The translations under genes and the position numbers were made by a program. From Mucilaginibacter geliditolerans (GTDB lineage Bacteria; Bacteroidota; Bacteroidia; Sphingobacteriales; Sphingobacteriaceae), in NCBI RefSeq assembly GCF_014200495.1, contig NZ_JACHBY010000002.1, positions 806,001 through 870,000 on the forward strand: a stretch of DNA of 64,000 nt, read 5' to 3'. The first letter of the stretch is position 1. Every line of letters starts with the position of its first letter. Positions 1 through 9,942 of the stretch are shown one piece after another. Below the pieces are notes generated by a model. That model was not told where the DNA came from. It worked only from the letters and a program-made list of their open reading frames with translations, and did not search any database.

Positions 1-533
1 CACACTTCGGTTTAACTGATGATGTTGACTTGATAATGGGTACCTTCAGTAAATCACTGGCCTCATTAGGCGGGTTTATTGCAAGTGATGCCGATACTAT
101 TGATTATTTAAAACACCGCGCACGTTCACTGATGTTCAGCGCCAGCATGACACCGGGCTCAGTAGCCAGTGTTATCGCAGCCCTTGATATCATCGAAACT
201 GAACCAGAGCGTATCCAAAAACTTTGGGATAACACCAACTACGCAATGAAACTTTTATTAGACGAAGGTTTTGACCTTGGCCCTACTGAAAGCCCAATAT
301 TGCCTATATACGTTCGTGATAACGATAAAACATTCCTGGTTACCAAATATCTGCAGGAAGCAGGCGTATTTGTTAACCCGGTAGTATCGCCTGCCGTGCC
401 TTCTGATTCATCTTTATTGCGCTTTTCGTTAATGGCCACTCATACCTTCGACCAGATTGATGAGGCTGTTGATAAAATAGCAAAAGCTTTTAAAGAGGTA
501 GGCGTTATCAGTGCTGTTAAAGAAAAAATATGA
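1..533 (+). CDS. spt: Serine palmitoyltransferase, C-terminal part
   Basis: This is the C-terminal half of a PLP-dependent alpha-oxoamine synthase; the start lies outside the window and the frame is open from base 3. The motif [13 protein letters not shown] holds the PLP-binding lysine (codon 51-53). The stretch [18 protein letters not shown] is typical of this fold, which includes serine palmitoyltransferase, KBL and BioF. Serine palmitoyltransferase condenses serine with a fatty acyl-CoA to 3-ketosphinganine, the first step of sphingolipid synthesis, in the cytoplasm. Sequence alone does not separate it fully from KBL or BioF. The choice rests on the downstream genes, which read as a ceramide and inositol-lipid pathway. 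Its stop overlaps the next start by 4 bp (ATGA), so the two are translationally coupled. Confidence 0.85.
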
Positions 534-1648
534 TCGAAGTAATTCCCGTCAGCCCTAAAAAAGGGCTGACTGATTTTATTGATTTCCCCCACGATCTTTA
601 CAAAAACGACCCATATTACGTTCCGGAGCTATTTATTGCACAAAGGGATCTGCTAACAAAGCATCCCTTTCATAAACATAACTCTTTACAAACTTTCCTG
701 GCTTATAAGGATGGCAAAATAGTTGGCCGTATTGCTGCTATTTTAAATAATGCCCATAATAAGTTCAACAATTGTAACGATGGTTTCTTCGGTTTCTTTG
801 ATTCCATTAACGATCAGGAAGTAGCCGATGCACTTTTTGCCGCTGCAGTAAACTGGCTAAAGGAAAAAGGCGTTACCCAAAAAATCATTGGCCCGGTTAA
901 CTTTTCAACAAATGAACCTTGTGGTTTACTGGTTGAAGGTTTTGACAGCTCGCCTGTTTTAATGGATACCTATAACTTTCCTTATTATATAGATCTGGTA
1001 GAAAAGCAAGGTTATACCAAACAAATCGATTTGATCTCGTGGAACTGGGAAGGTCAGAATTACGATGATAAATCGGTACGGCTGCTCAATACCTTACAAG
1101 AGCGTTTAAAAAGAAGCAATATTAATATCCGTAATATAAACCTTAAGGACTTTAAAAATGAGGCCGCTAAACTGCGTGAGGTCTATAATAAAGCATGGGA
1201 TCATAATACAGGTTTTGTTCCATTAACCGATGAAGAGTTTGATTACCTGGCAAAAGACCTTAAACTGATCCTCGATCCGGATTTTTGCCTGGTTGCCGAA
1301 CAGGATGGTAAAGTTGTTGGTTTTGGCTTAGCGCTGCCTGATTATAACCAAATATTTAAAACTATTAAGCGTGGCCGCTTATTACCAACGGGTATTTTCA
1401 AGCTCTTGCTCAACAAGAAAAAAATATCGCGCATACGCATATACGCATTGGGCGTAATTGATGGGTATCGCAAAATGGGTATCGAGGCCTGCTTATATGG
1501 CACCATAATAAAAGAATACAAACGCAAAGGCTTTAAATGCGCCGAAGCTGGGTGGACGCTTGAAAACAATACCCTTATAAACAATGCCATTGCAGCCATA
1601 AAAGGCGATCCTTACAAAAAATACAGGTTATACGAAAAGGATATATGA
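530..1648 (+). CDS. GNAT-fold acyltransferase, candidate bacterial ceramide synthase
   Basis: A 372-residue protein without signal peptide or membrane segment. The C-terminal half looks like a GNAT acyltransferase: a strand pair with [17 protein letters not shown] at about residues 255-271, then [19 protein letters not shown] at about 306-324 in the place of the acyl-CoA-binding loop and helix. The N-terminal half carries a second GNAT-like pattern ([16 protein letters not shown]). It overlaps spt and the following reductase by 4 bp on each side. In Caulobacter and Porphyromonas a GNAT-family protein N-acylates the sphingoid base (known from the literature). Position between spt and a reductase makes that role likely here; the substrate assignment is inference. 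It could also be an acyltransferase acting elsewhere in lipid tailoring. Confidence 0.7.
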
Positions 1649-2631
1649 AGAAGCGGGTTTTAATAACCGGTGCAAGTGGTTTTGTGGGCTATCATTTAAT
1701 TGAAGAGGCTTTGCATAATAACCTGGATGTGTACGTTGCCGTACGAAAAAGCAGTAATGTAAGCCATCTTGCAGCGTTCAACATCCAATACACCTACCCC
1801 GAGTTTGATAACCTTATAGCCTTAAAAAAAGAACTTAAGGAAAAACAATACGATTATATTATACATGCTGCCGGCGCTACCCGGGCGCGGTCGCAAAACG
1901 AATATAATACCATAAATGCCGAATACACTTATAACCTTGCCGCGGCAGCGCAAGCAGCTGATATCAATTTAAAAGGCTTTGTATTCATCAGTAGTTTGGC
2001 AGCAGTTGGCCCGCTTAATACTTTAAACGGCACCATAACCGAAGATACCATCCCCAACCCTATTACTGACTATGGCAGAAGTAAACTACTGGCTGAGGAG
2101 CAATTAAAAAGTATATCTTCATTACACTATACTATACTTAGGCCCACAGCCGTTTATGGACCACGAGATACAGGTATCTTCATCTTTTTTCAACAATTAA
2201 AAAGAGGAATTGAACCTTATATTGGCCAGGCAGAGCAAAAGCTTAGTTTCATATATGTTAAGGATTTGGCTAAAGCAGCTATTAAGGCCTTGTATACGTG
2301 CGACCAAAAGACTTATAATTTATCCGACGGGAATTTTTACAGTAGATACGAATTGGGAACAATCGCAAAAAATGTACTAAATTTGAAAACCTTAAAGTTT
2401 CATCTGCCTGTAAATTTTGTAAAAATAATAGCTTCAATATCAGAAAATGTCAGTTCTTTGCGCAACAAAGCCGCAATACTCAACAGCGATAAGTTAAAAG
2501 AGCTAACAGCCGTAAACTGGGATTGTGATATTGAGAAAGCGAAACACGAACTGGGTTACTACCCCATTTATAACCTGGATAAAGGCCTTGCCGAAACGCT
2601 TGCCTGGTACAAAAAGAACAAATGGCTGTAG
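1645..2631 (+). CDS. NAD(P)-dependent extended SDR, candidate CerR-type reductase
   Basis: A 328-residue Rossmann-fold protein of the NAD-dependent epimerase/dehydratase family. The dinucleotide motif is TGASGFVG (G9, G12, G15) and the catalytic pair is Y143-K147 in DYGRSK, with a serine-rich FISSLAA strand at 114-120. Members of this family have been shown to reduce the 3-keto group of sphingoid bases or ketoceramide in Caulobacter (CerR) and Bacteroides. Tight coupling (ATGA overlap) to the candidate ceramide synthase supports that role; a nucleotide-sugar epimerase is the alternative. The product would be dihydrosphingosine or dihydroceramide. Confidence 0.75.
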   Translation: MKKRVLITGASGFVGYHLIEEALHNNLDVYVAVRKSSNVSHLAAFNIQYTYPEFDNLIALKKELKEKQYDYIIHAAGATRARSQNEYNTINAEYTYNLAAAAQAADINLKGFVFISSLAAVGPLNTLNGTITEDTIPNPITDYGRSKLLAEEQLKSISSLHYTILRPTAVYGPRDTGIFIFFQQLKRGIEPYIGQAEQKLSFIYVKDLAKAAIKALYTCDQKTYNLSDGNFYSRYELGTIAKNVLNLKTLKFHLPVNFVKIIASISENVSSLRNKAAILNSDKLKELTAVNWDCDIEKAKHELGYYPIYNLDKGLAETLAWYKKNKWL

Positions 2632-9002: not shown

Positions 9003-9003
9003 C

Positions 9004-9942
9004 ATGAAGAATGCTATTAACAATGGCGTAACAGTAAATATCAAATCAATAATTGTTGTTTCGTTACTATCGGTTGCATATCTGCTGCTTTCCATCTTTT
9101 TGGTAGGTTATAAGGTAGATCAATTGGTACTTATTGGTATATTCAACAGCATGTTCTACCTGTCAGCAGGTACACGCAAGTTTATACTCGGCTTTTCCAT
9201 ATTCATTTTTTACTGGGTGATTTTTGATTATATGAAGGCCTTCCCTAATTATAATTATAATACCGTTCACATTGCCGATCTGTATAATTTTGAAAAGCAC
9301 CTGTTCGGCATTAACCTGAATGGTAAGCTGGTAACCCCCAATGAGTATTTCAGGTTAAAAGGCACAACCTTTGTAGATATAGTTACCGGTTTGTTCTATC
9401 TATGCTGGATCCCCGTTCCCCTGTCATTCGCGGCATACCTGTTCTTCACCAGAAAAAGGCAATTTTTATATTTTGCGCTAACCTTTTTACTGGTTAACCT
9501 ACTTGGTTTTGTAGTTTACTATGTATACCCCGCAGCACCACCCTGGTATATCGAATATTATGGCTTCAACTTCCACCCACTAACCGTAGGTAATACCGGC
9601 GGACTGGCAAAGTTTGATGCATATTTCCATATCAATCTATTTAAATCCATATACGCCAAAGGCTCAAATGTATTTGCAGCAATGCCTTCACTGCACTCGG
9701 CATACCCTGTTATAGTTTTATATTATGGGTTAAAAAATCGCCTGGGTTTTATAAATATCCTGTTCTTCATTGTGGTTATCGGCATATGGTTTACAGCCGT
9801 GTACGCCAGTCATCATTTTGTGTTGGACGTGTTAGCGGGTATTACCTGCGCAGCCATCGGCATAAGCCTCTTCAACCTTTTAATTTCGAAAGTGAAATTC
9901 ATGCAAACTTTCATTAAAAAGTACGAAGCCATAATTCAATAA
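9004..9942 (+). CDS. PAP2-family enzyme, AUR1-like candidate inositol phosphorylceramide synthase
   Basis: A 312-residue protein with about six to eight membrane helices. It has the PAP2 core in AUR1 form: YPAAPPWY at 175-182, MPSLHSAYP at 227-235 and YASHHFVLDVLAG at 268-280, giving the His-His-Asp catalytic set (H231, H271, D275). AUR1-like enzymes move phosphoinositol from phosphatidylinositol to ceramide. The pathway context matches that reaction closely. It is the last gene of the lipid cluster, 1 bp after the hydroxylase. A plain lipid phosphatase is the alternative. The 234 bp after it hold no clear feature. Confidence 0.85.
   Translation: MKNAINNGVTVNIKSIIVVSLLSVAYLLLSIFLVGYKVDQLVLIGIFNSMFYLSAGTRKFILGFSIFIFYWVIFDYMKAFPNYNYNTVHIADLYNFEKHLFGINLNGKLVTPNEYFRLKGTTFVDIVTGLFYLCWIPVPLSFAAYLFFTRKRQFLYFALTFLLVNLLGFVVYYVYPAAPPWYIEYYGFNFHPLTVGNTGGLAKFDAYFHINLFKSIYAKGSNVFAAMPSLHSAYPVIVLYYGLKNRLGFINILFFIVVIGIWFTAVYASHHFVLDVLAGITCAAIGISLFNLLISKVKFMQTFIKKYEAIIQ

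Follow-up and report, generated by a model that had tools for sequence, protein, structure and literature searches.

Ceramide genes and inositol-lipid genes in one conserved neighbourhood of Mucilaginibacter geliditolerans, a probable locus for inositol phosphoceramide synthesis

Introduction

The genes closest to those described here are BT_1522-1526 of Bacteroides thetaiotaomicron, which encode a myo-inositol-phosphate synthase (MIPS, BT_1526), a PgpA protein (BT_1525), a Gtr-A protein (BT_1524), a phosphatidylinositol-phosphate (PIP) synthase (PIPS, BT_1523) and an AUR1-like enzyme (BT_1522), and which have been tested by deletion (PMC9246714; PMC8791184). A deletion of BT_1525 was not obtainable in one of these studies (PMC8791184), and loss of the Gtr-A protein is described in one account as leaving thin-layer chromatograms unchanged (PMC9246714) but in the other as giving less inositol phosphoceramide (IPC) and more phosphatidylinositol (PI) (PMC8791184). 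A carboxypeptidase-regulatory-like gene, BT_1527, lies nearby, and the serine palmitoyltransferase gene (spt) of that organism, BT_0870, is located elsewhere (PMC9246714). We describe here a locus of Mucilaginibacter geliditolerans (assembly total 6.5 Mb) that has the same five genes in the same order on one strand, and hence a cluster of the BT_1522-1526 type, together with spt and other probable ceramide genes. It lies at the start of the window, by which we mean the whole 64,000-nucleotide stretch analysed, positions 806001-870000 of its contig. A preliminary description of the window had proposed that the ceramide and inositol branches, separate in Bacteroides, are fused here into a complete bacterial IPC pathway.

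Other systems offer partial comparisons. The yeast route to 2-hydroxylated IPC uses AUR1 and SCS7, and the PAP2 and hydroxylase proteins of our locus are similar in sequence to both enzymes, although the locus is bacterial and operon-like and would reach PI by way of PIP. The alternative inositol cluster described from Bacteroides vulgatus and Prevotella has an NTP transferase, an LPG_synthase_TM protein and a HAD protein in place of PgpA and PAP2 (PMC9246714). In Caulobacter, spt, bcerS and cerR encode a serine palmitoyltransferase (SPT), an acyltransferase and a reductase, broadly the same types of protein as the first three products of our locus (likened here by kind and not by sequence), and that work states that the players in the sphingolipid trafficking step are yet to be found (PMC11087976).

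Results and discussion

The locus comprises ten genes, all on the + strand, from 674 bp upstream of the window to position 9942, in the order spt, GNAT, SDR, MIPS, PgpA, GtrA, DUF5686, PIPS, hydroxylase and PAP2. The features within the window are as follows.

1..533, + strand: spt, serine palmitoyltransferase, C-terminal 176 of 402 aa (NF047600); the whole gene is at L002:11325-12533, L002 being the compared locus that carries the full-length spt of the window genome
530..1648, + strand: GNAT acyltransferase, probable bacterial ceramide synthase (bCerS-like; PF00583)
1645..2631, + strand: SDR protein (Epimerase type), probable ceramide or 3-ketosphinganine reductase (PF01370, 121.9 bits)
2657..3979, + strand: myo-inositol-phosphate synthase (MIPS, ino1; PF07994, 344 bits; matches 7nwr)
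3985..4443, + strand: PgpA-family phosphatase, probable phosphatidylinositol-phosphate phosphatase (PF04608, 126 bits)
4443..4814, + strand: GtrA-family membrane protein of the BT_1524 type (PF04138, 63.3 bits)
4807..7389, + strand: DUF5686 and CarboxypepD_reg protein, 860 aa (PF18939, 178.9 bits; PF13715, 56.8 bits)
7396..8133, + strand: CDP-alcohol phosphatidyltransferase, phosphatidylinositol-phosphate synthase of the BT_1523 type (PIPS; NF052561)
8134..8381, + strand: intergenic remnant of a decayed DUF4833 gene, as judged by blastn to the intact DUF4833 gene of L031
8382..9002, + strand: Scs7/FA2H-like fatty-acid hydroxylase, probable ceramide 2-hydroxylase (PF04116, 73 bits)
9004..9942, + strand: PAP2_3 protein, AUR1/BT_1522-like, probable inositol phosphoceramide synthase (matches NF052609 and 9vj3)

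Successive intergenic distances are -4, -4, 25, 5, -1, -8, 6, 248 and 1 bp: the eight genes from spt through PIPS are joined by overlaps or gaps of -8 to +25 bp, 248 bp separate PIPS from the hydroxylase gene, and PAP2 follows 1 bp later. The distances before DUF5686 and PIPS assume TTG starts, and use of the ATG a few codons downstream would make both gaps slightly larger. The eight genes named in the preliminary description are all present on this strand over the same span with matching domains, but GtrA (4443-4814) and DUF5686 (4807-7389) had been overlooked; without them PgpA and the CDP-alcohol transferase would stand 2.95 kb apart. The tight spacing of at most 25 bp that it reported applies from spt to PIPS once these two are counted, and does not extend to the hydroxylase. 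Relative to BT_1522-1526, the locus adds spt-GNAT-SDR at the front, DUF5686 between GtrA and PIPS, and the Scs7-like hydroxylase before PAP2, so that the proposed joining of ceramide genes to inositol genes is borne out in the window. We consider it quite probable, from the sequence comparisons below, that the ten genes constitute one neighbourhood for making IPC, probably co-transcribed at least in part.

A survey of gene order, which the preliminary description had suggested as a check, supports this. The loci and genomes compared are numbered with L and G, respectively, and the 80 loci surveyed are the best 80 of 552 confirmed relatives by MIPS similarity. Across all the L loci, five are entered twice, once from the named set and once from the G genomes (L025/L122, L054/L118, L064/L119, L075/L171 and L077/L136). 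A gene was counted only if an uninterrupted open reading frame (ORF) of at least 60 aa scored above 40 bits, which misses frameshifted genes, and a fused ORF was counted once, under its best family. In 60 of the 80, spt, GNAT, MIPS, DUF5686, PIPS, hydroxylase and PAP2 form one run; 17 of the other 20 end at a contig edge, and the conservation of the joined order indicates that the arrangement is more than chance. Only three loci differ. L073 (Pedobacter) has MIPS-PgpA-GtrA-PIPS-PAP2 without spt, and L075 and L076 have spt-GNAT-SDR-MIPS only; G759 has the same MIPS gene as L075 and its PIPS is on a different contig, which means a split cluster in that genome. An alternative inositol cluster following MIPS in these two loci was also considered, and none was seen among the L076 ORFs. 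L076, from Mucilaginibacter aquatilis, has near these genes a PAP2_C gene (L076:14088-14756), a family that we take to be sphingomyelin-synthase-like and that could provide a second head-group enzyme. Within the best 80, the closest named relatives of the window are Mucilaginibacter, with MIPS at 98% to a metagenome-assembled genome of 'Mucilaginibacter xinganensis', and the window DUF5686 protein is at 98% to M. mallensis.

Wider samples place the joined cluster in a few related groups. PIPS is found in 27 of 395 genomes of a class sample at E<=1e-40 and passes its cut-off in 14 of 395 genomes of a phylum sample. Thirty-one regions were read (28 PIPS genomes and three weaker genomes of family f27), and spt lies in ten of them: six from the window's genus, two from its family, and L120 and L123, which share the family handle f2. 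The named relatives of the L120 GNAT protein are Chitinophagaceae (Segetibacter and Foetidibacter, 68-82% identity), and this family is probably Chitinophagaceae. Among congeners, spt and PIPS are within 12 kb of each other in 30 of 36 PIPS-bearing genomes; in five they are on different contigs, and in one no spt was found. The full cluster is also present in Pedobacter alluvionis DSM 19624 (L083), a species used in sphingolipid work (PMC12724326). The joined cluster is therefore not unique to the window but is a trait common to Mucilaginibacter, Pedobacter and another, probably Chitinophagaceae, family. No report of it was found in the open-licence PMC literature. It unites the tested Bacteroides inositol-lipid route with a ceramide route in Mucilaginibacter and Pedobacter, beyond the host-associated genera in which that route has been called widespread.

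The full-length SPT of 402 aa matches NF047600 (SerpalmtaseCFB) with 764.4 bits over residues 1-394, above the equivalog cut-off of 640. The roles of GNAT and SDR in ceramide synthesis and reduction are probable, with support from gene neighbourhood: GNAT immediately follows spt in all 74 spt-holding loci and lies 41-85 bp from it in G033, G383 and G259, where spt sits away from PIPS, and SDR is present in 47 of the 60 complete runs. The GNAT protein is also 38% identical over its full length to an Escherichia coli protein annotated YghO. The hydroxylase (206 aa) matches the yeast Scs7 structure 4zr0 (E 1e-30), and the histidine pattern of Scs7/FA2H is present in it and in 73 of 74 other ORFs scored, the exception (L043) being truncated. 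Yeast Scs7 carries a cytochrome b5 domain, which the window protein is too short to include. In the 31 regions the hydroxylase gene tracks spt, occurring in nine of the ten with spt (the tenth ends early; six of the ten belong to the window's genus) and in none of the 21 without it.

Among the inositol genes, MIPS has the structure of BT_1526, 7nwr, as its top PDB hit (E 9.5e-171) and is the single MIPS match in the window genome. PIPS scores 407.9 bits against NF052561 (PIPSynBT1523), above the equivalog cut-off of 350, and the CDP-alcohol transferase catalytic motif is intact in it and in all 99 other ORFs that score above 300 bits in the PIPS profile, a set that counts five loci twice. The PAP2 protein matches NF052609, the BT_1522 equivalog, with 313.8 bits over residues 15-311, nearly its full length, and the solved AUR1 structure 9vj3 (E 3.1e-16); the PSLH...HHxxxD blocks are found in it and in 88 of 89 other ORFs, the exception (L029) ending at a contig edge.

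From the gene families, their order and conservation, and the joint loss of MIPS, PgpA and PIPS described below, all of which were observed, we infer the following reactions and product for this organism, along with roles for GtrA, the hydroxylase and DUF5686. SPT would condense serine with acyl-CoA, the GNAT protein would add the N-acyl chain, and SDR would reduce the 3-keto group, the order of the last two steps being debated in the literature. PIPS would couple the MIPS product to CDP-diacylglycerol, the PgpA-like enzyme would remove a phosphate to give PI, and GtrA may aid transfer of PI to the periplasmic leaflet; the PAP2 enzyme would transfer phosphoinositol from PI to ceramide. The Scs7-like hydroxylase would 2-hydroxylate the ceramide acyl chain, and DUF5686, an outer-membrane-type protein, could act last, in sphingolipid placement in the outer membrane. 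The product would likely be IPC, and probably 2-hydroxylated.

It could be supposed instead that the PgpA-like protein and the CDP-alcohol transferase serve phosphatidylglycerol and MIPS soluble inositol compounds, and that the pathway is an illusion of annotation. PgpA is formally a phosphatidylglycerophosphatase family, and the window genome has no other PgpA match at E<=1e-8; the protein scores 60.3 bits against the E. coli-type NF008288 (cut-off 226). Against this reading, PIPS passes the BT_1523 cut-off. Moreover, in 41 genomes of the genus (SPT in 39, PIPS in 36, MIPS in 34, PgpA in 34), PgpA and PIPS occur together in 34, PIPS alone in two, PgpA alone in none and neither in five (Fisher 2.8e-5 with kinship ignored, a value that is only indicative because related genomes are not independent). 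All five PIPS-less congeners lack MIPS and PgpA; four of them keep spt and the fifth genome is 71% complete. MIPS and PgpA are also missing from two PIPS-bearing congeners, whose genomes are 61% and 70% complete. In 11 congeners PgpA is no more than 8 kb from PIPS, whereas in 23, fragmented assemblies among them, it is farther away or on another contig; in G734 it adjoins MIPS on a contig other than that of PIPS. Since PgpA is mostly away from PIPS yet co-occurs with it, the link mostly outlives the neighbourhood. Both this co-occurrence at a distance and the joint loss of MIPS, PgpA and PIPS are new here, and they point to a PgpA tied to inositol lipids. The restriction of PgpA to phosphatidylglycerol, which the preliminary description had raised against itself, is made unlikely, and we regard this alternative as a whole as highly improbable.

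A more serious alternative is that the cluster makes ceramide and PI separately, and that the PAP2 protein is a lipid phosphatase or uses another acceptor, with no IPC formed. Two observations, on the PAP2 score and on genomes without clear SPT, speak for it. The window PAP2 score of 313.8 bits is below the NF052609 cut-off of 480, for which reason we call the protein AUR1/BT_1522-like and not an equivalog member, and five of six other PAP2 proteins scanned also fall short (288-350 bits); L129, from a BT-order cluster with spt on another contig, passes with 543.5 bits. PIPS-PAP2 clusters occur in seven genomes (G249, G723, G391, G707, G510, G561 and G700) without clear SPT, which is absent at E<=1e-100 or scores only 338-371 bits, the range of second KBL-like copies, and with GNAT matches of only 118-153 bits, the level of a paralogue also present in the window genome. 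PAP2 alone therefore does not prove IPC, and only if a divergent SPT escaped the search could its product in those seven be ordinary IPC. Other observations weigh against the main reading of the locus. Among the complete runs, PgpA is present in 28 of 60 and GtrA in 20 (missing from 32 and 40). GtrA and PAP2 were sought in the regions read, and their share in the joint loss rests on those regions. Caulobacter CerR is reported to be periplasmic (PMC11087976), whereas the window SDR has no hydrophobic stretch or leader and its nucleotide-binding fold begins right at the N-terminus. Homologues of both cluster types are absent or highly infrequent in Sphingobacterium, and Flectobacillus major is an exception to the agreement between genes and lipid bands, according to Heaver et al. 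Finally, a tree of 42 DUF5686 proteins does not separate the cluster copies from paralogues as a single clade, and a close paralogue lies outside the cluster in many congeners.

Nevertheless, the near full-length match to NF052609, the match to AUR1 with the same catalytic blocks, the 1-bp distance between PAP2 and a hydroxylase gene that tracks spt, and the report of ceramide phosphoryl-myo-inositol in Sphingobacterium spiritivorum (cited in PMC9246714) argue for IPC, and we judge separate ceramide and PI products improbable. The complete pathway of the preliminary description thus largely stands as gene content, with SPT and PIPS above their equivalog cut-offs and MIPS matching the BT_1526 structure, but it had overstated the product, given the PAP2 score and the seven genomes without clear SPT. 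Of these seven, G249 and G723 correspond to loci L128 and L138, and G391 to L127; G716 resembles them in its weak SPT and GNAT matches, with no PAP2 seen in its region.

With IPC as the preferred product, the joint loss also bears on how the locus is built. The inositol-minus loci L149, L150, L151 and L169 retain spt-GNAT-SDR and the hydroxylase gene, and the first three also retain DUF5686 and DUF4833 in place. Membership of DUF5686, DUF4833 and the hydroxylase in the inositol branch was considered and set aside, as inositol-minus congeners keep them with spt-GNAT-SDR; this retention suggests that DUF5686 and the hydroxylase belong with ceramide. The inositol genes would then be an exchangeable head-group cassette within a ceramide core of spt, GNAT, SDR, hydroxylase and DUF5686. 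In G190 (L163 and L173), spt-GNAT-SDR-DUF5686 is followed by an NTP transferase, a 289-aa protein, a CDP-alcohol transferase, LPG_synthase_TM, HAD, PfkB and DUF4833, which is the composition of the alternative inositol cluster apart from MIPS, of which none was seen in the region. The PfkB-family kinase (L163:10616-11548) might supply inositol phosphate from inositol, although this is a guess.

DUF5686 and the hydroxylase could also be bystanders, kept in place by a stable gene order and uninvolved in sphingolipids, which would be compatible with the proposed enzymology. The DUF5686 family is large and has paralogues elsewhere, and no paper on it or on DUF4833 was found in the open-licence PMC literature. 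In the 42-protein tree, however, the L149, L150 and L151 copies branch with the one from the L063 cluster, the relocated copy of G732 (L179), the fourth inositol-minus genome, branches with the one from the L040 cluster, and all four stand apart from a seven-member paralogue clade. DUF5686 thus stays with the ceramide genes after inositol-gene loss, relocated in G732, as the hydroxylase also stays; it abuts spt-GNAT-SDR in G190 and, in Bacteroides finegoldii, the MIPS gene of the alternative inositol cluster, and an Scs7-like hydroxylase lies beside aminotransferase, SDR and GNAT genes on an Acidisoma plasmid. A bystander role is, in our estimate, rather unlikely. The DUF5686 protein has a hydrophobic, signal-like N-terminus by eye, and it is likely the counterpart of BT_1527.

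In many relatives a DUF4833 gene lies between PIPS and the hydroxylase gene, with a separate ORF in 30 of the 60 complete runs. In the class sample it occurs in 21 of 27 PIPS genomes versus 21 of 368 PIPS-less genomes (counts from two match lists joined, with the overlap recounted), starting within about 1 kb of PIPS in all 21 genomes with both; in the PIPS-less genomes, 17 of the 21 regions were read and the surroundings are varied. PIPS and DUF4833 are fused in ORFs of 428-445 aa at L079, L082, L121, L128, L135, L136 and L138, those of L121 and L128 being confirmed by Pfam, and a 495-aa hydroxylase-DUF4833 fusion is found at L154:9005-10489 (G717). No match to PF16117 (DUF4833) is present in the window genome, and DUF4833 as an obligate part was rejected on this account. 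The 248-bp gap between PIPS and the hydroxylase gene nonetheless matches the intact DUF4833 gene of L031 over 189 nt (69%, E 5e-13, blastn), and by this comparison the gap is the remnant of a decayed DUF4833 gene. The reading frame is gone, but conserved islands persist at about 8219-8243, 8267-8284 and 8340-8375, with columns mostly 75-90% or more identical over 30 rows (the window and 29 gene-less relatives; L079 is omitted, its fused DUF4833 filling the 'gap'), and a few rows, such as L011, retain little of them. The islands may be former coding sequence that now acts as a hydroxylase-PAP2 promoter or in regulation of another kind. The tie of DUF4833 to PIPS by adjacency, fusion and remnant is new here.

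We put forward, tentatively and as a possibility that is more doubtful than not, a modular sphingolipid locus in Bacteroidota. A portable ceramide core (spt, GNAT, SDR and Scs7-like hydroxylase) would carry its own export arm, with DUF5686 in outer-membrane delivery or insertion and DUF4833 as a periplasmic helper of the lipid enzymes to which it is fused, and head-group cassettes (BT-type inositol, alternative inositol, or none) would be swapped in. If this is true, the missing bacterial sphingolipid transporter would be encoded in these loci. DUF5686 and DUF4833 are candidates for the trafficking step. Plasmid records agree in part. Regions were picked from hit lists, and four with GNAT, or a hydroxylase with GNAT, were opened. 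A Rubrobacter plasmid has, in a row, an aminotransferase, a GNAT match, an oxidoreductase and an LTA synthase family gene, and the Acidisoma plasmid has SDR, aminotransferase and sterol desaturase (the Scs7-like hydroxylase) with a GNAT match adjoining. A PLP aminotransferase adjoins GNAT in both, arrangements that would fit a portable ceramide core; none stands beside the GNAT match in the B. finegoldii or Sphingomonas regions, the other two opened. A hydroxylase match in Novosphingobium has no sphingolipid gene adjoining.

Several further observations concern neighbouring genes and records. At L153, L156 and L157, GtrA adjoins DUF4833 with similar-sized genes upstream, which in L156, the sole one scanned, are a short-chain dehydrogenase, PhyH and a CDP-alcohol transferase, resembling another lipid cluster that uses GtrA and DUF4833. 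L114:10924-12241, on a 330-kb plasmid of Hymenobacter volaticus, lies in an inositol-lipid cluster and holds MIPS in several pieces with no listed feature, as if frameshifted. Two B. finegoldii records labelled as plasmids, L116 ('plasmid 13') and L187 ('plasmid 38'), contain genes for mutY, ssb or DNA topoisomerase IV and resemble fragments of a chromosome. Upstream of spt on the opposite strand are genes that by eye resemble an RND efflux set. After the cluster, window positions 10177-11637 encode a 242-aa protein and a CAP-domain protein, both matched in 53 of the 80 related loci, and the CAP gene adjoins the hydroxylase gene in the inositol-minus L149 and L150.

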